Shown in pieces: positions 30,042 to 50,007 of a stretch of 64,000 nt of DNA. This DNA comes from an uncultured Lachnospiraceae bacterium (lineage in GTDB: Bacteria > Bacillota > Clostridia > Lachnospirales > Lachnospiraceae). The notes under the pieces are model-generated. The model was not told the origin of the DNA, searched no databases, and saw only the letters and a program-made list of their open reading frames with translations. The translations under genes and the position numbers were made by a program. Numbering within the stretch: the first letter of the stretch is position 1; each line of letters starts with the position of its first letter. The DNA is taken from the NCBI GenBank assembly GCA_946414885.1, contig CAMKQH010000001.1:62001-126000 (forward strand). The letters are read 5' to 3'.

Positions 30042-30071
30042 AAGATTATTGAGATAAATATCACGTCAACA

Positions 30072-30452: not shown

Positions 30453-30543
30453 GAAAGGTTACCTATATTGTAATGCTACTGCCCAAAATTTGATAAAACT
30501 AAATCAGATTTTGCCAAAAAATCTTAAAAGTAGTAAAACTAAA

Positions 30544-32160
30544 TCATGCAAAATAGTTTTGTAATGTCTTTTCAACGGCACCAATTCCGGAGGAAAGCTC
30601 TGCAAAGTATTTCTTTACAAGGTCTGACATGCCAATCTTGATCAGGTCGACGCCGAAGATTTTTTCATTGCGAAGGAGCTCGTCAAGACAGGAGAGGTCT
30701 TTTTCCTTCCCGTTCAATTCAAAGCCAGCGACGTAGGGAGTGGCAACGTCAAGCAGGGGATCGGGGCTAAGCGCGAAAGCATTTCCCTGATCATCCACGG
30801 CCATCAGGTATCGAAGCCAGCCGGCAAATACCAAGGGGATGAACTTTAAGTCATTAACGCTAAGGTCAGAGCGTTTTTGATAAGCCTTTATGGTCTCGCC
30901 GAAGCGGATCGCAAGCTTTTGGGAGGTATCCGTTGCAATTCTTTGAGGCGTGTCAGGCATGAAAGGGTTAGGGATTCTGACATTTACGACCGCGTCAATG
31001 AAGTCCTTCGGAGCAATGATTCCCGGATCAACAACGACGGGAAGTCCCTCCACATAGCCGATGGTTTCCACGAATTTCTTTAACAGGGGATTCTTCATCT
31101 CATCAGCGATCAAAGTATATCCGAGCAGGCATCCATATACGGCTAGCGTGGTGTGCAAAGGATTTAAGCAGGTGCATACCTTCATTTTCTCAACTTTGTC
31201 AACGGTTTCGCGGTCCGTGAAGATAATGCCGCCTTTATCGATGGGAGGCTTTCCGTTCGGGAAGGCATCCTCGATCACAAGGTATTCGCATTCCTCTGCG
31301 TTGACGAAGGGAGCGATGTATGTGTTCTTGGAGGTGATGACGGGCTCCAGATTCTCCATGCCGTCATCCAAGAGCATTTTTTCCACCTTGGCATCCGGTC
31401 TGGGGGTGATCTTGTCGATCATGCTCCAGGGGAAGGAAACCTTGGTCTTGTCATTGACGTAAGCAAGGAATTCCTTGTCGGCAAGGCCTTTTTCCGCCCA
31501 TTTTTCCGCGAAGGCATTGACTGCAGCGTAGAGCTTATCGCCATTATGGGAGCAGTTGTCCATGCTGACCATGGCAATGGGAAGCTTGCCGGCCTGAAAT
31601 CTTGCGTAGAGGAGGGATACGACTTTTCCAAGGTAGCTGCATGGCTTTTCGGGGCCGTTTTCGTAATCCTGCGCAACGCTGGGAAGCAGTTCACCCTTGC
31701 CGTCTGCAAGGCTGTAGCCTTTTTCGGTGATCGTGAAGCTGGCCATTTGGAGGCTGGGATTCTGAAAGATTTCTTTCAGTCTGCCGTACTCGGTTTCATT
31801 CTCGGAATCAAGGATCAAGGACTCCATGATGGAGCCAACCACGGTCTTTTCAACGGTTCCTGCAGCCTTTAGCGTAGCCAGGAGGCTTAGGTTGTCGTGG
31901 GGGCGGTTGCTTTTTTCGATGATCTCGTAATCATATCCTTCCGCAGCAATCAGGCCAACGTCGGTGATTCCCTGATTCAGGAGGTTTTGCATTACGTTTG
32001 CCTGGAATGCCCTAAAGATGTTGCCCGCGCCGAAGTGGATCCACGTGGGTCTCTCATGTGTATTTTTCTTTACTTTCTCATAATCAAACTCGGGCAGCCG
32101 GTATCCCTTTGCAAGGTACTCGGCCTTCCCTTCCCTGATTCCTTCTAACGTTAGTTTCAT
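30544..32160 (-). CDS. uxuB: Fructuronate reductase / mannitol dehydrogenase family (D-mannonate oxidoreductase)
   Basis: PTWIHFGAGNIFRAFQANVMQ..., CTCLNPLHTTLAVYGCLLGY; near mannonate dehydratase. Confidence 0.88.
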   Translation of the reverse strand: MKLTLEGIREGKAEYLAKGYRLPEFDYEKVKKNTHERPTWIHFGAGNIFRAFQANVMQNLLNQGITDVGLIAAEGYDYEIIEKSNRPHDNLSLLATLKAAGTVEKTVVGSIMESLILDSENETEYGRLKEIFQNPSLQMASFTITEKGYSLADGKGELLPSVAQDYENGPEKPCSYLGKVVSLLYARFQAGKLPIAMVSMDNCSHNGDKLYAAVNAFAEKWAEKGLADKEFLAYVNDKTKVSFPWSMIDKITPRPDAKVEKMLLDDGMENLEPVITSKNTYIAPFVNAEECEYLVIEDAFPNGKPPIDKGGIIFTDRETVDKVEKMKVCTCLNPLHTTLAVYGCLLGYTLIADEMKNPLLKKFVETIGYVEGLPVVVDPGIIAPKDFIDAVVNVRIPNPFMPDTPQRIATDTSQKLAIRFGETIKAYQKRSDLSVNDLKFIPLVFAGWLRYLMAVDDQGNAFALSPDPLLDVATPYVAGFELNGKEKDLSCLDELLRNEKIFGVDLIKIGMSDLVKKYFAELSSGIGAVEKTLQNYFA

Positions 32161-32177
32161 CTCATCACTCTTTCTGC

Positions 32178-32508
32178 CAGGATCCTGGCCATGGTTATGG
32201 TATCATGGATTTCGGCTGGGCGGCATGGTCCGCCGCGCAAGACACGCTTCGTTTTCTACTCGGGCCGCGCGCCTTATTTGTCGCCATTCGCCCTATCCGC
32301 CCGCAAGCGGGCACGGGCTCGATGGCGACGGCTAAGCGCAGCCCTCCTGACGAAAGCCTCGCTATTGTCTTCGCGCGGCGGGCCATGACGCCCAGCCAAA
32401 GTCCGTGCTGGGGTTCGCGTGGGGCTGGATTTGATGTTTGGGGGAGGGGGGCGACTGCCGCCGCAACCCGACTACCAAACCATTAAGCACCAAATCCAAC
32501 CCCGCGCG
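32178..32508. repeat. Non-coding nested palindromic block (unit A and adjoining inverted repeat)
   Basis: Arms 32207-32244 vs 32366-32404 (imperfect), inner gtcgccat/atggcgac and cccgcaagcggg; separate IR 32416-32441 vs 32475-32508. Confidence 0.8.
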
Positions 32509-32627
32509 AAATTATATTTATATAATTTTTTTATATTACTAAGCAATCTGCAAGTCCCATTCCATAAAGAGATATTGTGACGTGGAGATTACGTAAACGG
32601 GTTGGAACATGCCGGTGAGTCAGCACA

Positions 32628-32753
32628 GACGATAGCGAGGCTTTCGTCAGGAGGGCTGCGCTAAGCGCTGCCACAAAGCCCGTGCCCGCTTGCGGGCGGA
32701 TAGGGCGACTGGCAGCTTAAAGCTGCGCGGCCCGAGTAGAAAACGTAGCGTGC
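32628..32753. repeat. Inverted second copy (unit B) of the unit-A core
   Basis: Reverse complement of 32628-32753 aligns with 32243-32369 (shared ttttctactcgggccgcgc, cgccctatccgcccgcaagcgggcacgggct, gcgcagccctcctgacgaaagcctcgctat). Confidence 0.85.
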
Positions 32754-32799
32754 CTTATGGACTGCCCTTCTCCTTCGCCGTGACTAGGGAAAGCCATGC

Positions 32800-33867
32800 T
32801 TACTTATGGGACTTGCAGATCGCCTCCCAGAGTCCGTTGAGGTAGGTGGCGCCGAGTGCTCTGTCGTAGAGGCCATAGCCAGGCATTGCCACCTCGTCCC
32901 AGATCATGCGTCCGTGATCAGGACGGATGGGTCCTTCGAAACCGATGTCGTAAAGGGCGAGCATGATCTCGTACATGTCGAACGTGCCGTCGCTGGAAAG
33001 ATGTGCGGACTCCTCGAAATCAGTGGGAGAGTTAAACTTCAGGTTACGAACGTGCGCAAAGTGGATACGGCCTTTCAGGGAACGGATCATGTCGGGAAGA
33101 TCGTTTTCCAGGTTGGTGCCGTAGGAGCCGGAACAGAAAGTCACGCCATTGTGCGGATTGTCCACCATCTTCATCATCCGGAGAATGTTCTGCTTGTTGA
33201 TGATGATGCGGGGAAGACCGAAGACGCTCCAGGCGGGATCGTCCGGATGGATCGCCATGTTGATGTCATACTTGTCACAGACGGGCATGATACGCTCAAG
33301 GAAATACTTCAAGTTTGCGAAGAGCTTCTCGTCATCCACGTCCTTATACATTTCGAAGAGCTCCTTGATGTGTGCCATGCGTTCTGGCTCCCAGCCGGGA
33401 AGGATGGCACCGTTGGAGTCGCCGCTGATGGAAGCGAACATGTCCTCGGGATTTAAGGCGTCTACGGCTTCCTGCGTGTAGGCGAGAACCGTGGAACCGT
33501 CGGGACGAACCCGGGCAAGCTCCGTTCTGGTCCAGTCGAAGACGGGCATGAAATTGTAGCATACCATGTGGATGCCTGCCTGTCCAAGACGCTCCAGCGT
33601 GGTGATATAATTGTCGATGTATTTGTCGCGGTCAGGCGTACCAACCTTGATGGCGTCATGAACGTTCACGCTCTCAATGCCGACGAGCTGAAGGCCTGCG
33701 TCCTCAATTTCCTTCTTGAGGGCGAGAATGTCCTCCATCTCCCAAACCTCACCAGGCGCCGTGCCATAAAGGGTGGAGATCACTCCGGTCACCCCGGGGA
33801 TCTGACGGATCTGTTTCAAAGTAACCGTGTCGTACTTGCTGCCATACCAGCGCAAAGTCATCTGCAT
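32800..33867 (-). CDS. uxuA: Mannonate dehydratase
   Basis: MQMTLRWYGSKYDTVTLKQIRQIPGVTGVISTLYG...; SD ggagga upstream of ATG at 33867. Confidence 0.95.
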   Translation of the reverse strand: MQMTLRWYGSKYDTVTLKQIRQIPGVTGVISTLYGTAPGEVWEMEDILALKKEIEDAGLQLVGIESVNVHDAIKVGTPDRDKYIDNYITTLERLGQAGIHMVCYNFMPVFDWTRTELARVRPDGSTVLAYTQEAVDALNPEDMFASISGDSNGAILPGWEPERMAHIKELFEMYKDVDDEKLFANLKYFLERIMPVCDKYDINMAIHPDDPAWSVFGLPRIIINKQNILRMMKMVDNPHNGVTFCSGSYGTNLENDLPDMIRSLKGRIHFAHVRNLKFNSPTDFEESAHLSSDGTFDMYEIMLALYDIGFEGPIRPDHGRMIWDEVAMPGYGLYDRALGATYLNGLWEAICKSHK

Positions 33868-34056
33868 GTTTTTATCCTCCTGATCAATGGTAATAAATCC
33901 ATGGTACGCAAGCGAAAACACTTGCGTCCAGCTTTTGTTCTTAGTATAATCAAACCATAAATGCAAGAAAAGAATATATATTGCTGGAAATCATGTAAAA
34001 ATTGCTACTCTGGAAGATGGCGTGGATGGAATGATTTCAGGAAGTGAGGATGCAGA

Positions 34057-34932
34057 ATGGAAAATGACAGACGGACAAAGGGGAAAATACGGCGATTACC
34101 GGCGACGGAAGAACGACAGTATCTGATCGATGGGGATTATGAAGCCTATGAGAAGGAAGGCGTGCCGACGGGAGCCATGGCCTTTCATTATCATAATTTT
34201 TACGAAATCCTTTACGTGCTGGAGGGCGAATATTCCTCCATGGTGGAAAATCAAAGCTACCATCTGCACAAGGGCGATTTTTTGCTGATCGATCAGAACG
34301 TCATGCACAAGTATCAGCCCACGGAGGGAAAAAATGAGAATTCCAGGCGCATCATATTGTGGGTGACGGGAGCCTTCCTGAAAAGTCTTTCAGACGGGGA
34401 ACTGGATCTGACGGAATGCTTCCGCCTGCAGGATTCCAGGGCATGGCACTTTCCCGTTTACTATGAGGAAATGCTTCGCGGGTATCTCCTAAAGCTTGCC
34501 ATGGACGGCGCATCCACGGGGATCCGTCGTGCCATGGACAGAGGATATCTGACGCTGTTTTTTGCACACTTGAATCTTCTTTGCGGCAGAAAGGAATCGC
34601 TGCTCTCAGGGGAGTATGTTGCGGAGCATCCGCTGGTTGAGCAGGTGAACGCCTACGTGGAAGCGCATCTGGAGGAGAGCATTACCCTGGAGCAGCTTGC
34701 GGAATGCGTGCACGTAAGCAAGTATCATTTCCTGCGTAAGTTTAAGGAACTGACGGGCGTGACGGCACATGCCTTCGTCATGAACAAAAGGCTGATCCGC
34801 GCCTGTGAATTGTTACAAAAGGGTGAGAGCGTGACAACGGCATACCAGAAAGCTGGTTTTGGAGACTATTCCGTATTTCTGAGAAATTTCCGGGATGCCT
34901 TTGGCATATCGCCAAGCCAGTATCGCAGCTAG
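34057..34932 (+). CDS. AraC family regulator with cupin domain (divergent from uxuA)
   Basis: HYHNFYEILYVLEGEYSSMVENQSYHLHKGDFLLID; ITLEQLAECVHVSKYHFLRKFKELTGVTAHAFV. Confidence 0.92.
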   Translation: MENDRRTKGKIRRLPATEERQYLIDGDYEAYEKEGVPTGAMAFHYHNFYEILYVLEGEYSSMVENQSYHLHKGDFLLIDQNVMHKYQPTEGKNENSRRIILWVTGAFLKSLSDGELDLTECFRLQDSRAWHFPVYYEEMLRGYLLKLAMDGASTGIRRAMDRGYLTLFFAHLNLLCGRKESLLSGEYVAEHPLVEQVNAYVEAHLEESITLEQLAECVHVSKYHFLRKFKELTGVTAHAFVMNKRLIRACELLQKGESVTTAYQKAGFGDYSVFLRNFRDAFGISPSQYRS

Positions 34933-34942
34933 CCATTGCCCA

Positions 34943-35000
34943 GAAACGAAACGGCAGACGCGCCGTGCGAAACGTGACGGCAGACACGTCCCCGTGACAC
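34943..35000. repeat. Short REP-like degenerate repeat
   Basis: cgaaacggcagacgcgccgtg followed by cgaaacgtgacggcagacacgtccccgtg. Confidence 0.5.
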
Positions 35001-35001
35001 T

Positions 35002-36294
35002 TTAGTAGGCGCCGGGTTCGGAGATGCGGGTGATGCCGGTATAGATTTCTGAGACCTTATACCAGGTGGCGTAATCCGTGACGCCAGTTGCAGGCAGACC
35101 GAAGATTCGCTGGAAAATCCGGACGCTGTTGGCAGTGAGGGGACCGTAAATCCCGTCCTCTGAAAGCGTCGGTACGGCAGGATAGTTTTGCGCGATGCGG
35201 TTTAGCTGGTTTTGAAGCTGGCGGACCTTATCACCGCGGGATCCGTTTTGAAGCGCATATCCGGGATAAGAGGAGGGCACGCCGGAGATTTGCTGTGCAG
35301 AATTTAAATATAGGTCATTGCCAAAATAATACCGCAGGATCTCGATGGCACTGTAGCCCTCATCGGCCAAGTACCGGGAGCCCCATTGACTTAGGCCTCG
35401 GCAGGTGGTGTTTTTGCCGTCGCAGTAAGCGGTAAAGATGGGCTGGCGCACGCCTGGGCGGGAGAGGTAGTTGGCAAAGACGTTGTCTACGATCTGGTCA
35501 ACGTTCTCGTAGGTATTTCTGCCCTTGACCCATTTCTGGTCATATGCCGTCGAAGAAGTAATTGTGAAATTATAGCCTTTGGACCGGTACCATTCCACGT
35601 AGACGCGGTTTAGCGTAAAGGATTGGATGGCAAGCACGTTTGCGAGAATTGCGGCTTCCGGCCAGGTGGAATAGATCTCGTTTGCAGCCACGTTTTTAAT
35701 ATAATCTTTGTAGCGCACGTAATAATTGGGGGCAGTTGAGTCTGCGGGGACGCCGTCGTGAACGATGACGTATTCCGGAATCACGACGCGGCTCAGGACA
35801 ATCTCACCGGTATCCGGCAAAGGTTTGATTTCTTCTTCGGGGAGCTTTGGGGGATACTCTCCATACAGTGTGTGGGCTGGAATGACGTAGATCTCTTCCC
35901 CGCCTGACGTTTCGGGCAGGAAAAGAGGGCGAAGGCGGATTGTTTGGAGGGCCAGTTCCCCCGGAAGAATCTGGATGCCGTCGACGAGCGCCGTTTCATA
36001 ATCCGGCACCGTGACGGAAACGCTTACCTGCGCATAGGGCTGTGGCTGGTCAGGAGCGAGCGAGAGGGAAACGTTTGGCGCCGGAATGGAAATGACTTTA
36101 GTCTGACCGGATTCATCCGTGGTCAGGGTATCAATGGTTTGCCCGGAATCTCCCGTAAAAGAAACGCGGACAAGCGCACCTTGAATGGGCAATAGCCCCA
36201 AGGAGGAAGTAATCATGATTTTTAGCGTCCCGACAGACGCCGCGGCGGGAAAACTCGGAGCCAGGGGGACGTCAGGAATTTCAAGGTTGGTCAT
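35002..36294 (-). CDS. SpoIID/LytB-like domain protein with C-terminal peptidoglycan-binding domain
   Basis: KDYIKNVAANEIYSTWPEAAILANVLAIQSFTLNRVYVEW; PG-binding LQNGSRGDKVRQLQNQLNRIA...YGPLTANSVRIFQ. Confidence 0.75.
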   Translation of the reverse strand: MTNLEIPDVPLAPSFPAAASVGTLKIMITSSLGLLPIQGALVRVSFTGDSGQTIDTLTTDESGQTKVISIPAPNVSLSLAPDQPQPYAQVSVSVTVPDYETALVDGIQILPGELALQTIRLRPLFLPETSGGEEIYVIPAHTLYGEYPPKLPEEEIKPLPDTGEIVLSRVVIPEYVIVHDGVPADSTAPNYYVRYKDYIKNVAANEIYSTWPEAAILANVLAIQSFTLNRVYVEWYRSKGYNFTITSSTAYDQKWVKGRNTYENVDQIVDNVFANYLSRPGVRQPIFTAYCDGKNTTCRGLSQWGSRYLADEGYSAIEILRYYFGNDLYLNSAQQISGVPSSYPGYALQNGSRGDKVRQLQNQLNRIAQNYPAVPTLSEDGIYGPLTANSVRIFQRIFGLPATGVTDYATWYKVSEIYTGITRISEPGAY

Positions 36295-36433
36295 AAGATT
36301 TTCTCACAGAGCCTTTTTCGTTACTTTATGCAGATTTTCCAGATGCGTGACGATGGGAAAAGGATTGAAAAAATGACAAGATTATATTAGTATAGTATTT
36401 AGGGATTTTGACGGACGGATAAGGAGGAAAACC

Positions 36434-37135
36434 ATGAACGATCTGTTAGTGCTTAGCAACGTATCGAAGAATTACGGATATGGGAAACTGGCTGTAAACA
36501 ACGTTTCCATTACCCTTCCGAGAGGCAAGATTATTGGACTTTTGGGACCAAATGGCAGCGGTAAGACAACGATGATCAAGATGATCAACGGATTGCTCCA
36601 GCCAACGGAGGGCGAAATCCGTTTTTTGGGAGAGAAAATCGGACCGGAAAGCAAGGCAAGGATTTCTTATCTTCCAGACCGCACGTATCTTTCTCCCAGT
36701 GACACCATCTCGAGCATTTTGGATTATTTTGAGGACTTCTATGAGGATTTCTCACGAGAGAGAGCCGTAAAGATGCTGGAAGACCTTCAGATTGATCCAC
36801 GTGCCAAGATGAAAACGCTTTCCAAGGGTACCAAGGAGAAGGTGCAGCTCATTTTGGTCATGAGCCGGGAGGCGGATCTTTACGTGCTGGACGAGCCCAT
36901 TGCAGGCGTGGATCCGGCAGCCAGAGATTACATTTTGCGAACTATATTAAATAATTACCATCAGAATGCTTCCATCTTGATCTCCACGCATCTGATCAGC
37001 GACATTGAACAGGTATTGGACGAGGTAATCTTTATGCGCGACGGACGGTTGATCCTGTATGGTTCCGCACCGCAGATCCGGGAGCAACAGGGTAAGTCCG
37101 TGGATGCATACTTTAGGGAGGTGTTCGCATGTTAG
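36434..37135 (+). CDS. ABC transporter ATP-binding protein
   Basis: LLGPNGSGKTTMIKMINGL, LSKGTKEKVQLILVMSREADLYVLDEPIAGVDPAARDYI. Confidence 0.93.
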   Translation: MNDLLVLSNVSKNYGYGKLAVNNVSITLPRGKIIGLLGPNGSGKTTMIKMINGLLQPTEGEIRFLGEKIGPESKARISYLPDRTYLSPSDTISSILDYFEDFYEDFSRERAVKMLEDLQIDPRAKMKTLSKGTKEKVQLILVMSREADLYVLDEPIAGVDPAARDYILRTILNNYHQNASILISTHLISDIEQVLDEVIFMRDGRLILYGSAPQIREQQGKSVDAYFREVFAC

Positions 37136-37995
37136 GAAAATTATTTAAACATGAATTCCGACGCATTGGCAAGATGGCCAGCCTGCTTTTGGCGGTATTC
37201 TTTGGAGTTACCGTTTTTGGTGCAATTTATCTTGTATCTCCGCTATTTCACAGCATTATTGATGCCGGCAACAATTCCAGCATGGCGTTAACCGCAGTGA
37301 GCGGAATTATAGCCCTGCTTGGCCTTCTTTCCTATATGCTCATGTTGGTTGGACTGAGTTTTGGATTTATCATTTATCTTGGATTCCGTTTCTATCGCAG
37401 CATGTATTCCGATGAGGGATATCTGACGAATACCCTTCCGGTGAAATCTTCCCATCTTATCATCGCAAAGATTGCTGCGGGCGGTATCTGGATGCTGATC
37501 ATGACGCTGGCATTATATGTTTTTGTGGGCTTCTTGGTCATTGTTGGCTATTCACAGATGAGGGGAATTGGTCTCTTCGACGTGATAACCTTCTTTAGGG
37601 AAGCGCTTAATACGTTTGTTGAACTTGTGAAAGAAGTCGCAGACTATGACTTTTCCACGTCATGGATTTTATTGATTTGCATGACGATCATCTCCCCTTT
37701 TGCTACCTTAAGCATTTTGTTTGGTTCACTTACTTTGGGACAGTATTCGTGGAAGAATAAAGGACTTATGGGAATTTTGGCATTCATTGGCGTGAGGATC
37801 GCAATGTCAATCTTTAGCGGCATACTGAGCCTTGGCATTACCATGTTTCGCACGAATGCGGGAAACGATCCTGAACTCATGTTTATGCTGGCAAATGACA
37901 AGTATTTAGTCAATCTTTTAGCCCAAATTATTTTTGCATGTCTTCTGTTTTTCTGGTCCATTCACGTGGTGAGCGACCGATTGAACATGGAGTAG
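37129..37995 (+). CDS. ABC transporter permease (ABC-2-like, multi-TM)
   Basis: Overlaps ATPase gene by 7 bp; six or so TM helices. Confidence 0.75.
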   Translation: MLGKLFKHEFRRIGKMASLLLAVFFGVTVFGAIYLVSPLFHSIIDAGNNSSMALTAVSGIIALLGLLSYMLMLVGLSFGFIIYLGFRFYRSMYSDEGYLTNTLPVKSSHLIIAKIAAGGIWMLIMTLALYVFVGFLVIVGYSQMRGIGLFDVITFFREALNTFVELVKEVADYDFSTSWILLICMTIISPFATLSILFGSLTLGQYSWKNKGLMGILAFIGVRIAMSIFSGILSLGITMFRTNAGNDPELMFMLANDKYLVNLLAQIIFACLLFFWSIHVVSDRLNME

Positions 37996-38032
37996 GATTT
38001 TGACGTAACGTTGATTTGGGAGGGCTTGAAAA

Positions 38033-41000
38033 ATGAGAGAAGTCATAGATGAGGTCCTTAGCGGGAACTTTGGCAGCGAAACGGGATCCCTTGATTTTTC
38101 GCAGGCAACCATGGAACTATCCGTCTATCCGGGAGAAGAATACGAGGGAAGCTTCCAGATCTATGGGGAAAACGATGCTTTGATCAAAGGGCGTGTTTTC
38201 TCCACGGATTACCGCGTGGAATGCCTCACCCCGGAATTTGTCGGCAGGGATGCCGAGATTTCATACGTCCTTCACGGCTCATGCCTGGAAACGGGAGAGG
38301 TGGTCAAGGGCGCTTTTCGCGTGGTCAGTAATCTGGGAGAATATTCCCTGCCTTACGAGGTGACGTGTGAGGACGGATGGCCGGAGACCTCTTTGGGTAC
38401 GATTCAAAACCTGTCGGATTTTATAAATCTTGCCAAGGGAAATTGGCAGGAGGCAGTGTCTCTTTTTTATTCAGATTCATTTCTTAAGATCCTTGAGAAT
38501 GGCAATTCACAAAGCATTCCCATATATTATGGCCTGGCAGCTTATCCGGGACGGGAGCAGAACATGGAAGAATTCCTGATCCACGCAGGAAAGAAGCAAT
38601 GCGTGGAGTTTTTGACCGAGACGCCGCAGATCACGCTGGAAATGCAACAGGCTGAAGGAGAGTGGCATCTCATGGAGCAGGAGCTTTCGGTGACGAGGAG
38701 CGGTTGGGGCTACGTGGCACTCAACGTGGAGGCGGACGGAGAGTTTCTTGTGCTGGAGAAGGCGCTTCTAGTGGAAGAAGATTTTCTGGGAAATTATGCA
38801 AGACTTCCCTTTTACGTGGATCCGATAAAGTTAAAGCAGGGGATTAATCACGGGAAACTTGTATTCTATAATTCCTTTACGAGTTTTGAGGTCAGCGTGA
38901 CCGTAAAAAATGGCATGGCGCACCTGGTGAATCAGGCGAGACTTCACTGGGATCAGGCGATCGTGAAGATCATGCGGACCTATGAGCGTTTCCGCACCCG
39001 CAAGATGGGACTGGCAAACTGGCTGGACCAGACGCGGGAGCAGGTGGACAAGCTGATCGCCATGAACGAGGAGGATCCCATGCCTTGTCTGTTCAAGGCA
39101 CAGATTCTGATCACGCAGGACAGCCAGAATGAGGCGCAGTGGCTTCTTTCGCACGCCGTGGACCTGATGGAGAGGCAGCCTGACATTGATGAGGAGCTTT
39201 GGGCATATTACCTTTATCTCACCACGTTGCTTAGCAGGGACGAGGAAGAAATTTTAAGGGTGACGGATGAGGTGGAACAACTCTACCGCAAGAATCCGGA
39301 ATCCTGGAGGATCGCATGGCTTTTGCTTTACCTTTCGGCAGAGTTTATGGATAAGCCTGCGGAAAAACTCCGTTTCATGGAAAAGCAGTTTGAGCGTGGA
39401 TGCCGCAGCTTTGTCATTTACGTCGAGGCATTGCAGGCATATCTTAGCAATCCGGCGCTTTTGAGAAAGCTTGGCGAGTTTGAAAGACAGGTGCTTTACT
39501 ATGGCATCCGCAAGGATTATTTCAGTCCGGACCTCTCAGAACGCTTTTTAGGCTTGCTGGCGAAGGACAAGGACTATTCGCCGCTCCTTTGCAGAATCTT
39601 GGAAAGACTCTATCGCAAACGGAAGGACGCGCGCATCGTCCAGCATCTGTGCGAGCTTTTCGTCCGGGGCGGCATACTTGGACCAAAGGCTTTGCCTTGG
39701 TACGAAAAGGGTGTGGAGGAACAGCTTCGCATTACGAACCTGTACGAATCCTTTATGTCATCCATTGATCCGGAGGAGAGAAAGAGCCTGCCCAAGGCAG
39801 CAGTATTGTATTTCTCTTACCAGAATAAACTGGATCAGGACCGCACGGCGTTTTTGTATGATTACGTGCTGGATAACAAGGTACTGTATGCAGACGTCTA
39901 TGACAAGTATGTGCTGCGATGCAGGGATTTTGTGAATGACCAGATCGCGAAGGGACGGATCAACCGTCATTTGGCAAGGATTTATTCCCGGATGCTGACG
40001 CCGGAGATGATCAGCGAACAGAATCCAGACGTACTGATCAGGCTCCTGTTTACCGCAAAGATCCGCGTGAAGGATGAACGGATGAAGAAACTGATCGTCT
40101 TTGCGAAGGGAAGCATGATCGGCATGGAGTACCCGCTGATCGGAGGAGAGACTCTCGCACCGATCTATGGAGAAGACAGTACGCTGATTTTCGAGGATGC
40201 CTTTGGAAACCGGTTTGCGGATGAAATCTCTTTTGAGACGGAGCGCTACCTGAAGCCGGATCTTTTCCTGCAGGGACTGGAAAACAAGAACATGCAGTCC
40301 CCTGAGTTTGACTTGTACCTGCTAAATAAAGCCGGGGAAGAACCTTTAGGGGATGAGTTGGCCGAGAAGGCGATCGGTCTTTGTTCCTGGGAAGGATTGG
40401 AGACGGGAAAGAAAACTCAGATCTGCCTGCGGCTGTTAAAGCAATTCTTTGAAGGGGCACAGCCTGAGAGAATGGATGAGCTTTTCGGAATCATGAAAGC
40501 TCTGCCGCTCACGCTCACGCAGCGCATGGAAGCGGCTAAGTACGCCGTTCTTCGAGGCGATTATGAAGTTCCCTACGCATGGATGCGGGAATTTGGTCCA
40601 TATTTTATGGATGGCAATACGCTGGCAAGGCTTTTGGGAAATCTTTTGGCGGGCGGATGCAGCGAGGAGCCTAGCATCACGTCGGCAGTGACGTATCTTT
40701 TCCGCAGGGGAAAGGCGAGCGCGTTGGCCTTGGATTACCTGAGCAAATACGGTGAGGGGCATCTGAAGGATCTCAGGGACCTTTGGAAGGAGATGCGGGA
40801 GAATTCCCTTGACGTTACGGCGCTGGAAGAGAGGATCCTGATACAGATGATCTTCTCGGGTGCCTACGTTGCCGAACGGTCTGAGATTTTTGAAGAATAC
40901 TACAAAAACGCGGGGGAATCCTCCGTGATCAAGGCTTACGTCATTCAGAGCAGTTATGATTATTTTGTCAAGGAGCGGACGGCGGATTCCATTTGTTTCC

Positions 41001-41602
41001 GCGTCATGCTGGACGGCGCGCGGTGGGAGTCGAACCTGCCAAAGGTATGTAAGCTGGCATTCTTAAAGCACTACGCGGAGAACCCTTCCGAGGTATCCAG
41101 GGAAGTGGACGGCGCGCTGGATGCGTTCCTTCGGGAAATGATGGCGGAGAAGATCCATTTCGAGTTTTATCACAAGCTTAGACATCAAAGGCATCTTTTG
41201 GGTGAACTGGCGGACAAGTGTCTTGTGGAATACCGCACGAAACCCGGCGGCCGCGCCCGGATCCATTACGTGATCACGAAGGATGGAGAAAAAGGTCAGG
41301 AATACCTGTCAGAAAACATGAGAGACGTATTCTGCGGGATCTGCTGCCGGGAATTTGTGTTATTCTTTGGCGAGACGCTGCAGTATTACGTGACGGAAGA
41401 AATCGGCGGGGAAGAGACCATGACGGTTTCGGGAACGCTTCAGTGCCGTGAGACGGATGCGGATGCCGCGGGAACCATGTACGGCATGATCAATGACATG
41501 GTCATGAGTCAGGGCATGCAGGACGGAGATGCGCTGGATGAAGCGTTGGAACACTATTATTTTAAGGAGTTTTGCGGCGAGAGCCTGTTCACTTTGCGAT
41601 AG
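38033..41602 (+). CDS. Large uncharacterised protein: N-terminal beta (Ig-like) region plus alpha-helical TPR/HEAT-like repeats (DUF5717-type by recall)
   Basis: 1189 aa; beta-rich N-term (YPGEEYEGSFQIYGENDALIKGRVFS...) then long helical repeat region; no signal peptide seen. Confidence 0.65.
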   Translation: MREVIDEVLSGNFGSETGSLDFSQATMELSVYPGEEYEGSFQIYGENDALIKGRVFSTDYRVECLTPEFVGRDAEISYVLHGSCLETGEVVKGAFRVVSNLGEYSLPYEVTCEDGWPETSLGTIQNLSDFINLAKGNWQEAVSLFYSDSFLKILENGNSQSIPIYYGLAAYPGREQNMEEFLIHAGKKQCVEFLTETPQITLEMQQAEGEWHLMEQELSVTRSGWGYVALNVEADGEFLVLEKALLVEEDFLGNYARLPFYVDPIKLKQGINHGKLVFYNSFTSFEVSVTVKNGMAHLVNQARLHWDQAIVKIMRTYERFRTRKMGLANWLDQTREQVDKLIAMNEEDPMPCLFKAQILITQDSQNEAQWLLSHAVDLMERQPDIDEELWAYYLYLTTLLSRDEEEILRVTDEVEQLYRKNPESWRIAWLLLYLSAEFMDKPAEKLRFMEKQFERGCRSFVIYVEALQAYLSNPALLRKLGEFERQVLYYGIRKDYFSPDLSERFLGLLAKDKDYSPLLCRILERLYRKRKDARIVQHLCELFVRGGILGPKALPWYEKGVEEQLRITNLYESFMSSIDPEERKSLPKAAVLYFSYQNKLDQDRTAFLYDYVLDNKVLYADVYDKYVLRCRDFVNDQIAKGRINRHLARIYSRMLTPEMISEQNPDVLIRLLFTAKIRVKDERMKKLIVFAKGSMIGMEYPLIGGETLAPIYGEDSTLIFEDAFGNRFADEISFETERYLKPDLFLQGLENKNMQSPEFDLYLLNKAGEEPLGDELAEKAIGLCSWEGLETGKKTQICLRLLKQFFEGAQPERMDELFGIMKALPLTLTQRMEAAKYAVLRGDYEVPYAWMREFGPYFMDGNTLARLLGNLLAGGCSEEPSITSAVTYLFRRGKASALALDYLSKYGEGHLKDLRDLWKEMRENSLDVTALEERILIQMIFSGAYVAERSEIFEEYYKNAGESSVIKAYVIQSSYDYFVKERTADSICFRVMLDGARWESNLPKVCKLAFLKHYAENPSEVSREVDGALDAFLREMMAEKIHFEFYHKLRHQRHLLGELADKCLVEYRTKPGGRARIHYVITKDGEKGQEYLSENMRDVFCGICCREFVLFFGETLQYYVTEEIGGEETMTVSGTLQCRETDADAAGTMYGMINDMVMSQGMQDGDALDEALEHYYFKEFCGESLFTLR

Positions 41603-41623
41603 GGCTCCCGGGGAGGACGGAAA

Positions 41624-42901
41624 ATGCTTAAAATTGGCGGTAATCAAAAATTGATCGTGGGTTATGACCTCGGTTGGGATTATGCCCAGATTAGCTACTG
41701 CAATGCGGCGGGAAGTGCCGTGGAGACGGTGTCTTCCGTTGCGGGTTCGGAATATTTCAGCATACCGACGGTGCTCTGCAAGCGTCCAGGCGTCAACCAA
41801 TGGTTTTATGGGAAAGAGGCTCTGCAGTACGCGCAGGAGAATCAGGGGATCCTGGTGGAGAACCTGCTTCAGCTTGCAGTGGACGGGGAGTCCGTCCAGA
41901 TCGACGGCGGAGAATATGATCCCGTCGCACTGCTGACGCTGTTTTTCAAGCGGAGTCTTGGCATGTTATCCAGCGCAGCCGGCACGGAAAAGATCGAAGC
42001 GCTGATGATCACCTGCGACCGGTTGGACGCCACCGTGATCGCGGTTCTGGAAAAACTATCCGCAAATCTCCGGCTTAAGACGGAGAGGATCGCATGGCAA
42101 TCCCATCAGGAGAGCTATTATGATTATCTGATCCATCAGCAGGGCGAGCTGTGGAAGGAGCCTTCCATTCTCTTTCACTATCAGGGAAACCGCATGATCT
42201 GTTATCGGATGGAATGCAACCGGAAGACAAAGCCCGTCGTTACGTTTATTCACAGGGAAGAGGAAGAATTTCCATCTAAGGCATCCCTGTCGGGCAAGGA
42301 ACAGGAAGGCAACCAGATCCTGGACCGCACCTTCTTGGAATTGGTTCAGGAGAAGATCGGAAACGGAAGGATCGCTTCCGTCTATCTGATCGGAGATGAT
42401 TTTTCGGAGGATTGGCTCAAGGAATCCTTGAAGTTCCTGTGTGACAGGAGACGGATATTCCTTGGGAATAACCTCTTTTGCAAGGGTGCCTGTCACGGCA
42501 TGCTCGAACATTTTCATCCCAGCGACGTGGCAAGCGAGTACGTATTCCTTGGAGAAGACAAGCTAAAGAGCAACATAGGCATGAACGTCTTCCGGCAGGG
42601 GAGCAGCACCTATCTTCCCCTCTTGGATGCGGGAACGAACTGGAAGAAGGCGACGACAAGCCTGGAATTTTATCTAAAGGGCGAGAACGTGGTGGAATTG
42701 ACGGCAACAAGCCTTGTAGGCGGCGGGAAAATGGTCTTGCCCATAGAACTGGAGGGATTCTCTGGAGACATGGCGCGCATCCGCATGATGCTGTACATGA
42801 AGGGAGAGAAATTGCTTCACGCGCGGTTCTCGGATCTGGGCTTTGGAGAATTCCGTTCCGCGGAGACAAGGGTTTGGGAAAAAGACGTCACGTTAGACTA
42901 G
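41624..42901 (+). CDS. Divergent Hsp70/actin-fold ATPase-like protein (DUF5716-type by recall)
   Basis: N-term LIVGYDLGWDYAQISYC (phosphate-1-like), FSIPTVLCKRPGVNQWFYGKEAL, VYLIGDDFSEDWLKESLKFLC..., beta-rich C-term. Confidence 0.65.
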   Translation: MLKIGGNQKLIVGYDLGWDYAQISYCNAAGSAVETVSSVAGSEYFSIPTVLCKRPGVNQWFYGKEALQYAQENQGILVENLLQLAVDGESVQIDGGEYDPVALLTLFFKRSLGMLSSAAGTEKIEALMITCDRLDATVIAVLEKLSANLRLKTERIAWQSHQESYYDYLIHQQGELWKEPSILFHYQGNRMICYRMECNRKTKPVVTFIHREEEEFPSKASLSGKEQEGNQILDRTFLELVQEKIGNGRIASVYLIGDDFSEDWLKESLKFLCDRRRIFLGNNLFCKGACHGMLEHFHPSDVASEYVFLGEDKLKSNIGMNVFRQGSSTYLPLLDAGTNWKKATTSLEFYLKGENVVELTATSLVGGGKMVLPIELEGFSGDMARIRMMLYMKGEKLLHARFSDLGFGEFRSAETRVWEKDVTLD

Positions 42902-42910
42902 GAGGCATTT

Positions 42911-43765
42911 ATGCAGGCATATCTTTGCGTGGGAGAGTATTCTTCCGTACCATATTTGATCCAGGGCCTGGAAATGCGGGTATATTGCATGGAGGAGCTC
43001 TGTTACGGACTTAAGGAAAATGCATTTCTTCTCGACAGCTCCATCATGAGCGATACGCTGCTCCGTTGGATCCGCGAGCGCTGCGGGCTGGATGAACTGG
43101 CAGATTTCCTGTATCCCATGGTGCACCGGCAGGGATCCTTGAGCACCTTCGTCTCAGCCATTTTGCAGTATGTGGGACTGTATGACGCGGAAACCATCCG
43201 CCAGGTTGAGCAGATCCTCAAGAAGGGCGCCGGTCTTTCGAGTCTGGAAAAGCGGAAGGAGCAGGTGGATTATCTGGCAAAAAAGAAGAAATACGTGGCA
43301 GCCATCCGCGGCTATGACGGACTGCTCCTGAAATGGGAGGAGTTTGGAGAGATGGGACTTTCCGTTCCCGGAGACGAGCTTAAGGCCAACATCTGCCACA
43401 ACAAGGGCGTGGCCTACGCGAGGCTGATGCTGTACGGACAGGCTGGTGACAGCTTCCTTTCCGCGTACCGAATCACGGGTAACGAGGACGAGTACCTGTG
43501 TTTCCTGGCCACAAAGCGCATGGAACTGTCGGAAAGCCAGTACGTCGGGTTTGCGGCAGGGGAGATGGAGCATTATGAGCTTACTTTGGAACTCGAGAAG
43601 AAGATGGAGGAGCTCCGGCTCGATTTCCAGCTTCAGCCGGCGGAACTGATGCTCAGGGAACGCAGGGAAGCTAAGGAATCTGGCGACGAGCGATACTATC
43701 AGGAAGAAGGGGCGAAACTCTGCGAATCGCTCAAAAACCAGTACCGGTTTAGCGTCGGGGAGTGA
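42911..43765 (+). CDS. Uncharacterised TPR-like protein
   Basis: NICHNKGVAYARLMLYGQAGDSFLSAYRITGNEDEYLCFLATKRM resembles TPR; nine-base gap from upstream gene. Confidence 0.6.
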   Translation: MQAYLCVGEYSSVPYLIQGLEMRVYCMEELCYGLKENAFLLDSSIMSDTLLRWIRERCGLDELADFLYPMVHRQGSLSTFVSAILQYVGLYDAETIRQVEQILKKGAGLSSLEKRKEQVDYLAKKKKYVAAIRGYDGLLLKWEEFGEMGLSVPGDELKANICHNKGVAYARLMLYGQAGDSFLSAYRITGNEDEYLCFLATKRMELSESQYVGFAAGEMEHYELTLELEKKMEELRLDFQLQPAELMLRERREAKESGDERYYQEEGAKLCESLKNQYRFSVGE

Positions 43766-43912
43766 TTCTCGATTTATACAAAAAAACCATCGAATTTTTT
43801 CATATTTTCTTGATTTTTTCTATTGAAAATTTTCGATAAACGTGTTTATCTATTAAAGTGATTTCTTTTGAAATAATTATTCAGTATGACAAGAGAGCGA
43901 GGTAAATTGAGT

Positions 43913-44782
43913 ATGCAGGAGCTGAAACCCATCAAAGAGGGTAAAGTGCGCGAGATCTATGACAACGGCGACAGCCTGATCATGGTTGCCACGGACCGCA
44001 TCAGTTGCTTTGACGTGATCCTTCACAACGTGGTTACGAAGAAGGGTACCGTACTTACGCAGATGTCTAAGTTTTGGTTTGACATGACGAAGGACATCAT
44101 TCCCAACCACATGATTTCCGTTGACGTAAAGGACATGCCTGAGTTCTTTCAGCAGCCGAAGTTCGACGGCAACAGCATGATGTGTAAGAAACTGGAGATG
44201 CTTCCCGTGGAGTGCATCGTTCGCGGCTATATCACCGGAAGCGGCTGGGCTAGTTACGTTAAGAACGGCACGGTTTGCGGCATCAAGCTTCCTGAGGGAC
44301 TGAAGGAGTCTGACAAGTTACCTGAGCCTATCTATACCCCTTCCACGAAGGCTGAGATCGGAGATCACGACGAGAACATCTCCTACGAGCAGAGCGTGGA
44401 ATATCTTGAGAAGCGTTTCCCCGGTAAAGGCGAAGAATATGCTTCCAAGCTCCGTGACTATACCATCGCTTTATATAAAAAGTGCGCAGACTATGCGCTG
44501 ACCAGAGGCATCATCATCGCTGACACGAAATTTGAATTCGGTCTCGACGAGAACGGAAACATTGTTTTGGGCGACGAGATGCTTACCCCTGACAGCTCCC
44601 GTTTCTGGCCTGCCGAAGGGTACGAGCCCGGACATGCACAGCCTTCCTTCGACAAGCAGTTTGCAAGAGACTGGCTGAAGGCAAACGAGCATGACTGGAC
44701 CTTGCCGGACGAGATCGTGCAGAAGACGATCGACAAGTACCTTCAAGGATATGAACTGCTGACAGGTAAAAAATTAGTATAA
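43913..44782 (+). CDS. purC: Phosphoribosylaminoimidazolesuccinocarboxamide synthase
   Basis: MQELKPIKEGKVREIYDNGDSLIMVATDRISCFDVIL...PVECIVRGYITGSGWASY. Confidence 0.96.
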   Translation: MQELKPIKEGKVREIYDNGDSLIMVATDRISCFDVILHNVVTKKGTVLTQMSKFWFDMTKDIIPNHMISVDVKDMPEFFQQPKFDGNSMMCKKLEMLPVECIVRGYITGSGWASYVKNGTVCGIKLPEGLKESDKLPEPIYTPSTKAEIGDHDENISYEQSVEYLEKRFPGKGEEYASKLRDYTIALYKKCADYALTRGIIIADTKFEFGLDENGNIVLGDEMLTPDSSRFWPAEGYEPGHAQPSFDKQFARDWLKANEHDWTLPDEIVQKTIDKYLQGYELLTGKKLV

Positions 44783-44792
44783 CCATATCATG

Positions 44793-44831
44793 GCCCAAGG
44801 CTATGCTTTCGACGGCGTAAGCACCTTGGGC
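44793..44831 (+). other. Intercistronic hairpin between purC and purB
   Basis: gcccaagg(cta)tgctt-tcgacggcgt-aagcaccttgggc; no T-tract. Confidence 0.7.
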
Positions 44832-44862
44832 TATCGAAGTTTAAAACATAAGGAGAACGTAA

Positions 44863-46314
44863 ATGAGTACTGACAGATATCAGAGTCCATTATCAGAGAG
44901 ATATGCCAGCAAGGAAATGCAGTTTATCTTTTCCCCCGACATGAAGTTCCGCACCTGGAGAAAGCTTTGGATCGCCCTTGCCGAGACGGAGAAGGAGCTT
45001 GGTCTTTCCCAGAACGGAAAGCCCGTCATCACGCAGGAGCAGATCGATGAGTTAAAGGCACATGCCGAGGATATCAACTATGACGTGGCACAGGCCAGGG
45101 AAAAGGTGGTACGCCACGACGTGATGAGCCATGTATATGCGTATGGTCAGCAGTGCCCCAAGGCGGCAGGCATCATCCATCTTGGCGCTACGTCCTGCTA
45201 CGTTGGCGACAATACGGACATTATCGTAATGACCGAGGCTTTAAAGCTCGTCCGCAAGAAGCTGATCAACGTGATGAAGGAGCTGGCTGATTTCGCTGAC
45301 AAGTATAAGGCACAGCCCACGCTTGCCTTCACCCACTTCCAGCCTGCACAGCCCACGACCGTTGGCAAGCGCGCAACCCTGTGGCTTCAGGAGTTTTCAC
45401 TGGATCTGGAGGACCTGGATCACGTACTTTCTACCATGAAGCTTTTGGGCTCCAAGGGAACCACGGGTACCCAGGCATCCTTCCTCGAGCTCTTTAACGG
45501 GGATCAGGAGACCATCGACAAGATCGATCCCATGATCGCTGCAAAAATGGGCTTTAAGGAGTGCTATCCCGTATCCGGCCAGACCTATTCCAGAAAGGTT
45601 GACACCAGAGTGGCCAACGTGCTTGCAGGCATTGCAGCCAGCGCGCACAAGATGAGCAATGACATCCGTCTGCTCCAGCATCTGAAGGAAGTGGAAGAGC
45701 CCTTCGAGAAGACGCAGATCGGTTCCTCCGCAATGGCATACAAGAGAAATCCCATGAGAAGCGAGAGAATTGCTTCCCTGTCCAGATACGTTATGATCGA
45801 CGCGCTGAACCCTGCCATCACCTCGGCAACCCAGTGGTTTGAGAGAACGCTCGATGATTCTGCTAACAAGAGACTTTCCATTCCCGAAGGCTTCCTTGCC
45901 ATTGACGGCATCCTGGATCTTTGCCTGAACGTGGTGGACGGCTTGGTAGTATATCCCAAGGTGATTGAAAAGAGACTCCGCAGTGAGCTTCCTTTCATGG
46001 CAACGGAGAACATCATGATGGATGCCGTAAAGAATGGCGGCAACCGTCAGGAGCTTCATGAGCGCATCCGTGAGCTTTCCATGGAAGCGGGACGCAACGT
46101 TAAGGTTGAGGGTAAGGACAATAACCTCCTGGAGCTCATTGCCGCAGATCCCGCCTTTGGCCTCTCTCTCGAAGACCTTCAGAAATGCATGGATCCTTCG
46201 AAATACGTTGGCCGCAGCGTTGTTCAGGTTGACGCCTTCCTCACTGGCGTCATCCGCCCCATCCTCGCTGCCAACGCCGACCTCCTTGGCGTCAAGGCAG
46301 AGATCAACGTGTAG
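44863..46314 (+). CDS. purB: Adenylosuccinate lyase
   Basis: SPLSERYASKEMQFIFSPDMKFRTWRKLWIALAE; signature SSAMAYKRNPMRSERI. Confidence 0.96.
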   Translation: MSTDRYQSPLSERYASKEMQFIFSPDMKFRTWRKLWIALAETEKELGLSQNGKPVITQEQIDELKAHAEDINYDVAQAREKVVRHDVMSHVYAYGQQCPKAAGIIHLGATSCYVGDNTDIIVMTEALKLVRKKLINVMKELADFADKYKAQPTLAFTHFQPAQPTTVGKRATLWLQEFSLDLEDLDHVLSTMKLLGSKGTTGTQASFLELFNGDQETIDKIDPMIAAKMGFKECYPVSGQTYSRKVDTRVANVLAGIAASAHKMSNDIRLLQHLKEVEEPFEKTQIGSSAMAYKRNPMRSERIASLSRYVMIDALNPAITSATQWFERTLDDSANKRLSIPEGFLAIDGILDLCLNVVDGLVVYPKVIEKRLRSELPFMATENIMMDAVKNGGNRQELHERIRELSMEAGRNVKVEGKDNNLLELIAADPAFGLSLEDLQKCMDPSKYVGRSVVQVDAFLTGVIRPILAANADLLGVKAEINV

Positions 46315-46393
46315 GAAATTCATGATTCATAATTTATAATGTCATTTAACTGATTAATGAAAGTTAATGGCTTGAAACAATCTCGAGGGGATG

Positions 46394-46547
46394 TTTGAAA
46401 TAGGCTCTCTCAGGCATGTGTGCCAAGCGTCGGTACTTATTCCGCGTATCGCGTGACGATTGTGCTTGTCGCAAGCGGCACGCGAGGGGAATTAGTACCG
46501 ATACGCTGCACTCATAGCGCGAGCGTGCCTGAGAGAGCCTATTCAAA
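46394..46547. repeat. About 154 bp imperfect palindrome upstream of purF-like gene
   Basis: aataggctctctcaggca vs tgcctgagagagcctatt; agcgtcggtacttattcc vs ggaattagtaccgatacgct; centre gcttg-tcg-caagc. Confidence 0.85.
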
Positions 46548-46590
46548 CAAAGCCCCGAGTTCTTCAAAATATACAGTAAGGAGAAATGAC

Positions 46591-48006
46591 ATGGGCGGAT
46601 TTTTTGGAGTTGCATCAAAAGAGGATTGTACGTTTGACCTGTTCTTTGGTACGGACTATCATTCTCACTTGGGAACGCGCCGCGCGGGAATGGTGGTATA
46701 CGGCAAGAAAGGCTTTGACCGTGCGATCCACAACATCGAAAACGCACCCTTTCGTACGAAATTTGACGGTGACGTGAATTCCATGGAGGGAAATCTGGGA
46801 ATCGGATGTATTTCCGATTATGAACCACAGCCCCTGCTTATGAGATCGCATCACGGCACCTACGCCATCACCACCGTGGGCAAGATCAACAATGCAGAAG
46901 CCTTGACAAAACAGATCTTTGACAACGGCCTGTCTCACTTTATGGAGATGAGCAGCGGCGAGATCAACGCAACGGAACTGGTTGCGGCGCTAATCAATCA
47001 GAAGGACAACATGGTGGACGGCATCCGCTATGCGCAGGAGGTCATCGACGGATCCATGAGCATTCTGATCCTGACGCCCCTTGGTCTGTATGCCGCAAGA
47101 GACCGGCTTGGAAGAACGCCGGTGGTGATCGGAAAGAAGAAAGACGCCTACTGCGTTTCCTTTGAGAGTTTTGCTTATTTGAACCTTGGATATGAAGATT
47201 GCAAGGAATTAGGACCTGGAGAAATCGCGGTGGTTACGCCTGATGGCGTGAAGACGCTTGTGAATCCCGGTAAGGACATGAAAATCTGTACGTTCCTTTG
47301 GATCTATTACGGCTATCCTTCCTCGTCCTACGAGGGGATCAGCGTAGAGCAGATGCGTTATAACTGCGGCGCTGCCCTGGCAAAGAGAGATGCAGGCAGG
47401 GATCACGTAAAACCGGACATCGTTGCCGGCGTACCGGATTCCGGAACGGCACATGCCATCGGATACGCAAATGAGTCCGGCATTCCGTTCTCCAGACCGT
47501 TTATCAAGTACACGCCGACCTGGCCGAGATCCTTCATGCCGACGATGCAGACACAGAGAAACCTGATCGCGAAGATGAAGCTGATTCCCGTGCATGACCT
47601 GATCCAGGACAAGAAGCTTCTTCTGATCGACGATTCCATCGTGCGTGGAACGCAGCTTCGCGAGACGACGGAATTCCTGTACCAGAGCGGTGCGAAAGAG
47701 GTTCACATCCGTCCTGCGTGCCCGCCGCTTTTGTTTGGCTGTAAGTACTTGAATTTCTCCAGATCCACGTCCGAGATGGACTTGATCGCGAGAAGAGTAC
47801 TGAAAGACATGGAGCAGGAAGGCCTGCAGATTGACTTAAAGAAGTACGTGGATCCCAACACGAACGAATACAATGACATGGTGTCGCGCATTGGAAAGCA
47901 GCTTAATTTCACCACTTTGCATTTCCACAGACTGGACGACATGATCAACTCCGTTGGCATTGACAAGGAAAAGCTTTGTACTTACTGCTGGGACGGCAGG
48001 GAGTAA
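46591..48006 (+). CDS. purF: Amidophosphoribosyltransferase family protein (PurF-like)
   Basis: GTDYHSHLGTRRAGMVVYGKKGF; PRPP motif LLLIDDSIVRGTQLRET; ggag SD before ATG at 46591. Confidence 0.88.
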   Translation: MGGFFGVASKEDCTFDLFFGTDYHSHLGTRRAGMVVYGKKGFDRAIHNIENAPFRTKFDGDVNSMEGNLGIGCISDYEPQPLLMRSHHGTYAITTVGKINNAEALTKQIFDNGLSHFMEMSSGEINATELVAALINQKDNMVDGIRYAQEVIDGSMSILILTPLGLYAARDRLGRTPVVIGKKKDAYCVSFESFAYLNLGYEDCKELGPGEIAVVTPDGVKTLVNPGKDMKICTFLWIYYGYPSSSYEGISVEQMRYNCGAALAKRDAGRDHVKPDIVAGVPDSGTAHAIGYANESGIPFSRPFIKYTPTWPRSFMPTMQTQRNLIAKMKLIPVHDLIQDKKLLLIDDSIVRGTQLRETTEFLYQSGAKEVHIRPACPPLLFGCKYLNFSRSTSEMDLIARRVLKDMEQEGLQIDLKKYVDPNTNEYNDMVSRIGKQLNFTTLHFHRLDDMINSVGIDKEKLCTYCWDGRE

Positions 48007-48069
48007 TCAGAACGCAAAACTAGATGAATTCGAAACTTGAGGAATTCACGGAAAGAAAGGAAGAAACAT

Positions 48070-49365
48070 ATGGTTAAAGCAGTTGTAGGAGCAAACTGGG
48101 GCGACGAAGGAAAAGGCAAGATCACGGACATGCTGGCTGAGAAGGCGGACGTTATCGTACGTTTTCAGGGCGGTGCAAATGCAGGACACACGATCGTGAA
48201 CTGCTATGGCAAATTTGCATTGCACACTCTGCCTTCCGGCGTGTTTTACGGTCATACCACCAGCGTGATCGGCAATGGCGTGGCACTGAATATTCCCCTG
48301 TTGTTCAAGGAAATTCAGTCCATCGTAGAGAGAAACGTGCCCATGCCCAAAATCTTGGTTTCCGATCGCGCACAGATCGTGATGCCTTATCACATTCTCT
48401 TTGATCAGTATGAGGAGGAGCGCCTTGGCGGTAAATCCTTTGGATCTACCAAGTCCGGCATCGCACCTTTTTATTCTGACAAGTATGCTAAGATCGGTTT
48501 CCAGGTCAACGAGCTGTTTGACGAGGAAGGCTTGGCTGAAAAGGTGAAAAGCGTATGCGCCGTAAAGAACGTTCTCTTAAAGCACCTCTACAATAAGCCT
48601 GAGATCGATCCGGAAGAGCTGTTAAAGACGCTGCATGAGTATAAAGAGATGGTTGCACCTTACGTTTGCGACGTTTCCGCATTCCTGGACCGCGCGCTGA
48701 AGGATGGCAAGACTGTTCTGTTAGAGGGTCAGCTTGGAACCTTAAAGGATCCTGATCACGGCATCTATCCCATGGTTACGAGTTCCTCCACGCTCGCTGC
48801 ATACGGTGCGGTAGGCGCAGGCATTCCGCCCTATGAGATCAAGCAGGTTGTGACGGTATGTAAGGCATATTCTTCCGCAGTAGGTGCAGGTGCGTTTGTT
48901 TCCGAGATCTTTGGGGATGAGGCGGATGAGCTTCGTCGTCGCGGCGGAGACGGCGGTGAGTACGGCGCTACCACCGGAAGACCCAGAAGAATGGGTTGGT
49001 TTGACTGCGTTGCTTCCAAGTATGGCTGCCGTCTGCAGGGAACCACGGACGTTGCCTTCACGGTGCTGGACGTGCTTGGCTACCTGGACGAGATCCCCGT
49101 TTGCGTTGGATATGAGATTGACGGAAAGGTGACGACGGATTTCCCCGTAACGCACCTTCTTGAGAAGGCAAAGCCCGTGCTTAGAACGCTTCCCGGATGG
49201 AAGTGCGACATCCGCGGCATTGACAAGTATGAGGATCTTCCTGAGAACTGCAGAAACTATATTGAGTTTATTGAAAAGCAGATCGGTTATCCCATCACCA
49301 TGATCAGCAATGGCCCTAGAAGACAGGACATTATTTACAGGGAGAGCCCTTTGAAAAAGGCGTAA
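48070..49365 (+). CDS. purA: Adenylosuccinate synthetase
   Basis: MVKAVVGANWGDEGKGKITDMLAEKADVIVRFQGGANAGHTI. Confidence 0.97.
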   Translation: MVKAVVGANWGDEGKGKITDMLAEKADVIVRFQGGANAGHTIVNCYGKFALHTLPSGVFYGHTTSVIGNGVALNIPLLFKEIQSIVERNVPMPKILVSDRAQIVMPYHILFDQYEEERLGGKSFGSTKSGIAPFYSDKYAKIGFQVNELFDEEGLAEKVKSVCAVKNVLLKHLYNKPEIDPEELLKTLHEYKEMVAPYVCDVSAFLDRALKDGKTVLLEGQLGTLKDPDHGIYPMVTSSSTLAAYGAVGAGIPPYEIKQVVTVCKAYSSAVGAGAFVSEIFGDEADELRRRGGDGGEYGATTGRPRRMGWFDCVASKYGCRLQGTTDVAFTVLDVLGYLDEIPVCVGYEIDGKVTTDFPVTHLLEKAKPVLRTLPGWKCDIRGIDKYEDLPENCRNYIEFIEKQIGYPITMISNGPRRQDIIYRESPLKKA

Positions 49366-49398
49366 AAGGGATTGACAGGGAAAGGACGACGGGAGAGC

Positions 49399-49998: not shown

Positions 49999-50007
49999 GA
50001 ATCACCG

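Follow-up and report, generated by a model that had tools for sequence, protein, structure and literature searches.

The question raised by this locus is whether five tightly packed genes form one module, and what such a module could do. The genes lie in 64,000 nucleotides of an uncultured Lachnospiraceae bacterium (GCA_946414885.1, contig CAMKQH010000001.1, forward strand, positions 62,001 to 126,000); this whole stretch is called here the window, and its features are given in its own numbering. The five open reading frames (ORFs) are all on the + strand, at 36434-37135, 37129-37995, 38033-41602, 41624-42901, and 42911-43765, and encode proteins of 233, 288, 1189, 425, and 284 amino acids (aa), in this order. 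The first two, an ABC ATPase and a permease, overlap by 7 bp and the gaps that follow are of 37, 21, and 9 bp, exactly as given in the preliminary description of the locus, which joined the five genes into a chaperone/co-chaperone assembly tied to a membrane transporter. Our reading is narrower. We consider, with a probability of roughly 0.6, that the last three genes, encoding DUF5717, DUF5716, and a TPR protein, are a reduced version of a specialised Hsp70 system, of which Lachnospiraceae would have kept one Hsp70, called H2 below and equivalent to DUF5716, and two repeat proteins, and that the products would work as a cytosolic ATP-independent complex.

The extent of the unit was obtained from gene order in the window, in near relatives that carry a name, and in 11 distant Lachnospiraceae loci. 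DUF5716 directly follows DUF5717 in 90/91 testable loci and the TPR gene comes next in 91/91. These three genes are conserved together across Lachnospiraceae and form the true unit, 38033-43765. The ABC pair behaves differently. The ATP-binding protein (36434-37135, +; PF00005, E 1.4e-26) and the permease, with six predicted transmembrane segments (37129-37995, +), lie upstream of the trio in 51/70 near-relative loci but in 0/11 of the distant ones, and the median gap between pair and trio is 107 bp; between the genes of the trio themselves the medians are 20 and 12 bp. The five-gene grouping was too wide, because the pair is adjacent in near relatives only: it is a local, clade-restricted neighbour and not a core component, and its membership in the core was ruled out by gene order at the distant loci. 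It could be argued that an active Hsp70-like ATPase and its co-chaperones are coupled to the ABC transporter in a single five-gene module, given the tight packing in the window's genome and the adjacency in near relatives; the distant loci and the lost ATP-site residues of DUF5716 (see below) make this very improbable. Of the module first proposed, the trio remains and the tie to the transporter is not supported. Divergent from the ABC pair, at 35002-36294 (-), the window encodes a SpoIID/LytB-like protein that carries a peptidoglycan-binding domain at its C-terminus.

The trio is a nearly universal feature of the family. DUF5717 was found in 198/200 sampled Lachnospiraceae genera, nearly always as a single copy. 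The sole two genera without a DUF5717 match (G706 and G710) may represent true losses or assembly gaps. Wider samples comprised 399 phylum, 245 class, and 246 order genomes. In the phylum and class samples the matches that exceeded the cut-off were confined to Lachnospiraceae, with one sub-threshold match (E 6.5e-4) elsewhere. In the order sample DUF5716 was present in all 33 Lachnospiraceae genomes; 84 genomes of other families also gave matches, which were for the most part weaker and frequently came in pairs within a genome.

The second core gene is DUF5716 (41624-42901, +). The preliminary description named the DUF5716 and DUF5717 families in Lachnospiraceae, and they are real: the window proteins are direct members, far above the cut-offs, of DUF5716_C (PF18980, E 1.9e-85) and of DUF5717_N (PF18984, E 2.6e-253) and DUF5717 (PF18983, E 3e-90). 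Pfam gives these families no function and none was found in the open-licence literature; we read them here as an Hsp70 remnant and a beta/TPR scaffold. A search of the window's genome with PF00012 did not report DUF5716. The profile built from DUF5716 and H2 aligns to DnaK across the nucleotide-binding domain (NBD) and the beta part of the substrate-binding domain (SBD-beta) with E 4.9e-12. The AlphaFold model (predicted local distance difference test, pLDDT, 88.4; predicted template modelling score, pTM, 0.82) contains an NBD followed by SBD-beta, and its best 50 Foldseek matches are all Hsp70-family entries, with E from 5e-18. The similarity to Hsp70/DnaK (PF00012) covers both domains by profile and by Foldseek. 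The SBD-beta-like domain is found at 42569-42895 (+) and carries a DxGFGE motif; the protein ends after it, and the alpha-helical lid of the SBD is absent. By fold and descent, as judged from profiles, model, and tree, DUF5716 is an Hsp70 with NBD and SBD-beta, ortholog of H2.

Taking the residues of DnaK as reference, the ATP site of DUF5716 was followed in a table of 76 rows, which correspond to 75 distinct sequences. The phosphate-1 motif is degenerate, DLGWDY at 41666-41683 (+) instead of the DLGTTN of DnaK. T11, K70, E171, T199, D201, and the second adenosine Gly are kept in 0/76 rows; the first Asp of phosphate-1 is retained in 72/76, T12 in 4/76, and one adenosine Gly in all 76. Besides these residues and the lid, DUF5716 has lost NBD subdomain IIB, a short linker (42236-42301, +) replacing about 70 more residues: the stretch has a median of 67 residues (50-72), compared with 134 (126-144) in H2 and 135 in DnaK. 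DUF5716 is predicted not to hydrolyse ATP, and on the lost ATP-site residues we reject its identity as an active ATPase. The protein had been proposed as a divergent Hsp70-like ATPase; the Hsp70 fold and the SBD-beta agree with what we found, the activity is not supported. The closest functional analogy is Ssz1, of the fungal ribosome-associated complex, which has no lid, does not hydrolyse ATP, and acts in a fixed complex (PMC7083937). Both are lidless Hsp70s with SBD-beta, but Ssz1 has retained ATP binding and its partner is the J-protein Zuo1, whereas no J-domain was recognised at the trio and DUF5716 has additionally lost subdomain IIB. We regard this likeness as an analogy and not as shown kinship.

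The probable origin of the trio can be traced in other families of the order, where a larger operon is found (L044, 5612-19596 (-); L046, 4318-18534 (-); also L047, L048, and L050). It contains DUF5717 homologues, four Hsp70-type proteins (H1-H4), a GrpE-domain fusion, and a TPR protein. H1, H3, and H4 are intact lidless Hsp70s, H4 being fused to VWA, and every tested ATP-site residue is kept in 25/25 of their sequences; H2 is a degenerate Hsp70 already without K70, T12, T199, and D201 (0/9 each). In the tree, DUF5716 is nested in H2 (support 100), as sister to the H2 of the intermediate family f4 (99), and H2 is sister to the canonical H3. Weak MreB matches were obtained for H1, H3, and H4, and actin/MreB and Hsp70 share a fold superfamily, from which it might be thought that DUF5716 is an actin/MreB/FtsA-like filament protein and not an Hsp70. 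Its profile and Foldseek matches, however, extend through SBD-beta with Hsp70 at the top, which rules out that identity, and the tree puts it among Hsp70 paralogs; we consider the filament protein hardly conceivable. In f4 (L043, 5205-8384 (-)) H4 and the TPR gene are each apparently split into two ORFs, which may reflect a frameshift, an error of sequencing, or a genuine fission.

The N-terminal region of the GrpE fusion was detected in 77/246 order genomes, but in 0/33 of the Lachnospiraceae genomes of that sample and in 0/200 of a separate draw of Lachnospiraceae, for which the order sample served as positive control. Outside Lachnospiraceae, 74 genomes carry both the fusion and PF18980, and 10 and 3 are discordant (Fisher p 5e-42, uncorrected for relatedness). 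Considering that GrpE opens DnaK via rotation of subdomain IIB (PMC4753570), the loss of this subdomain fits the loss of the GrpE fusion. A divergent cobD-like gene lies upstream of DUF5717 both in Lachnospiraceae (L035, L036, L038, and L039) and in large operons (L046 and L048), which supports one and the same locus for both forms, trio and larger operon. A chaperone origin of the trio, from the multi-Hsp70/GrpE operon of related families, is strongly supported, and to this extent the chaperone/co-chaperone assembly first proposed finds a basis, separated from the transporter. No description of such an array of Hsp70s, GrpE, and scaffold was found in the open-licence literature. We would give even chances to the view that the larger operon encodes a chaperone machine not described before, composed of four Hsp70-type subunits, an exchange factor of its own in the form of the GrpE fusion, a VWA-fused Hsp70, and a giant Ig-TPR scaffold, and that all Lachnospiraceae depend on a derivative of it that discarded every active ATPase and kept only the dead Hsp70 as core nucleotide-free scaffold.

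The two neighbours of DUF5716 are repeat proteins, as had been anticipated. DUF5717, core gene 1 (38033-41602, +), was modelled by AlphaFold with pLDDT 86.5 and pTM 0.59, the model being good by domain. It shows two N-terminal Ig-like beta domains linked by helices (residues ~27-112 and 192-293; 38111-38911, +), an alpha solenoid (residues 301-672 and 746-1061; 38933-41215, +) with a beta domain in between (674-738), and a C-terminal beta domain (residues 1062-1137; 41216-41443, +). With Foldseek, the N-terminal ~300 residues match ciliary central-apparatus and Ig-like/BACON chains, and the solenoid matches TPR/HAT scaffolds and UNC-45; the template modelling scores (TM-scores) are all low, and therefore it is the general fold class, a giant beta/alpha-solenoid scaffold of TPR type, that is supported. 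A viral fold search gave Ig-like and repeat-protein matches only, and the sequence search against PDB found nothing. Core gene 3 (42911-43765, +) encodes the 284 aa protein, for which no Pfam or NCBIfam match was obtained. Its profile matches consensus TPR and the TPR domains of co-chaperones (CHIP, STI1, FKBP4, and Tah1), and hhalign gives 99.7% for its match to the TPR protein that the larger operon encodes, which itself has strong TPR matches in Pfam. On these profile comparisons we assign it as a TPR protein.

The nearest described neighbourhoods are those of the GAP1-N2 conflict systems, organised around a GTPase, in which Kaur et al. (2020) reported HSP70, GrpE, a second HSP70 without peptide-binding domain, and FNIII fused to TPR or DnaJ (PMC7159879). 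Like them, the larger operon brings together Hsp70, GrpE, an incomplete Hsp70, and a protein with Ig-like and TPR parts, and DUF5717 itself combines Ig-like domains with a TPR-like solenoid. It could be proposed from this that trio and larger operon belong to a conflict or defence system in which Hsp70, GrpE, and FNIII-TPR proteins regulate an effector. Conflict systems, however, are patchy, whereas the trio is near-universal in Lachnospiraceae and almost always single-copy; among the annotated neighbours, in a scan that covered part of the ORFs of the loci, no GTPase, GAP1, or effector was recognised; PADLOC gave generic ATPase/Hsp70 matches only; and the several Hsp70 paralogs and the VWA fusion are further differences. 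We judge a defence role improbable, though somewhat less so than the coupling to the ABC transporter.

How the reduced Hsp70 system might work can be outlined from gene order and anatomy. No transmembrane segments were predicted in DUF5717, DUF5716, or the TPR protein, and we infer that the three form a single cytosolic complex in which the TPR and solenoid proteins would hold the pseudo-Hsp70. The latter would bind peptides constitutively, with low affinity and independently of nucleotide, or serve as a docking platform for clients, without ATP hydrolysis. In most Lachnospiraceae, a coiled-coil protein with two transmembrane segments would recruit the complex to the membrane. This protein, of ~390 aa, has its two segments between coiled-coil-like arms, and its gene lies downstream of the trio in 69/89 loci. 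The window is without it. It was not found in the window's genome by two single queries and one profile, with positive controls, and it is also absent from four close relatives, five other relatives being positive in the same search; it was lost in the window's clade. Members of this protein family, such as those at L059, 8065-9255 (+), L032, 11312-12490 (+), and L048, 5192-6352 (-), share a KIRYVNNT-like motif and reach the cut-off of no Pfam family; they are present in 145/246 order genomes.

A different role for the trio would be to assist the housekeeping DnaK/DnaJ/GrpE or HtpG, with a pseudo-Hsp70 that still binds nucleotide or DnaK and, in the manner of Hsp110 or of a recruiter, does not act alone but by way of these ordinary chaperones. 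The window's genome retains a normal DnaK, a DnaJ-like ORF lies downstream of it, the TPR protein resembles co-chaperone TPR domains, as said, and htpG is found 0.1-8 kb upstream of the trio in 10/91 loci. Against this, subdomain IIB is deleted in DUF5716, the linkage to htpG is a minority pattern, and no DnaK-binding motif was identified in the trio. Such assistance is the foremost alternative in our estimation, and an unlikely one.

Several observations weigh against the reduced Hsp70 system. The TM-scores of DUF5716 in Foldseek are moderate (0.45-0.59), which is expected because it is a two-domain protein with a deletion. The loss of residues predicts, but does not prove, that ATP binding was lost, Ssz1 being an Hsp70 that still binds ATP. 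The direction from the large to the small form is proposed from one sampled tree and from synteny; because this tree has some long branches, the placement of DUF5716 within the family is unsure. About half of the order genomes from other families carry neither form. Finally, other families place the coiled-coil gene directly upstream of a valS-like gene (L140 and L142-L145), and its partnership with the trio is thus proposed from gene order.

With regard to the surroundings of the locus, purC comes directly after the trio in the window, followed by purB and purF (43886-48006), and in 76/84 loci purine genes are found no more than 6 kb downstream of the trio. In L032, htpG (Hsp90) is directly upstream of the trio (3431-5479, +), and 9 further loci have htpG upstream. 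The promoter scan gave a result near chance expectation and no Rfam families were found within 30000-50000 of the window. The host is a Lachnospiraceae of Acetatifactor type: the closest named records are Acetatifactor sp. RUI221 and a metagenome-assembled genome from buffalo rumen, whose DUF5716 is 97% identical to that of the window.

Lachnospiraceae are among the most abundant bacteria of the human and ruminant gut. DUF5716 and DUF5717 were already in Pfam, and the larger operon is the most novel element of what is described here. Read as a stripped-down Hsp70 system, the two DUF families, like the orphan TPR gene, become a testable chaperone question. The family would offer an apparent natural case in which a catalytically dead paralog was retained while the live ones and their exchange factor were dropped, and this case bears on the role that pseudo-Hsp70s may have without an ATP cycle.

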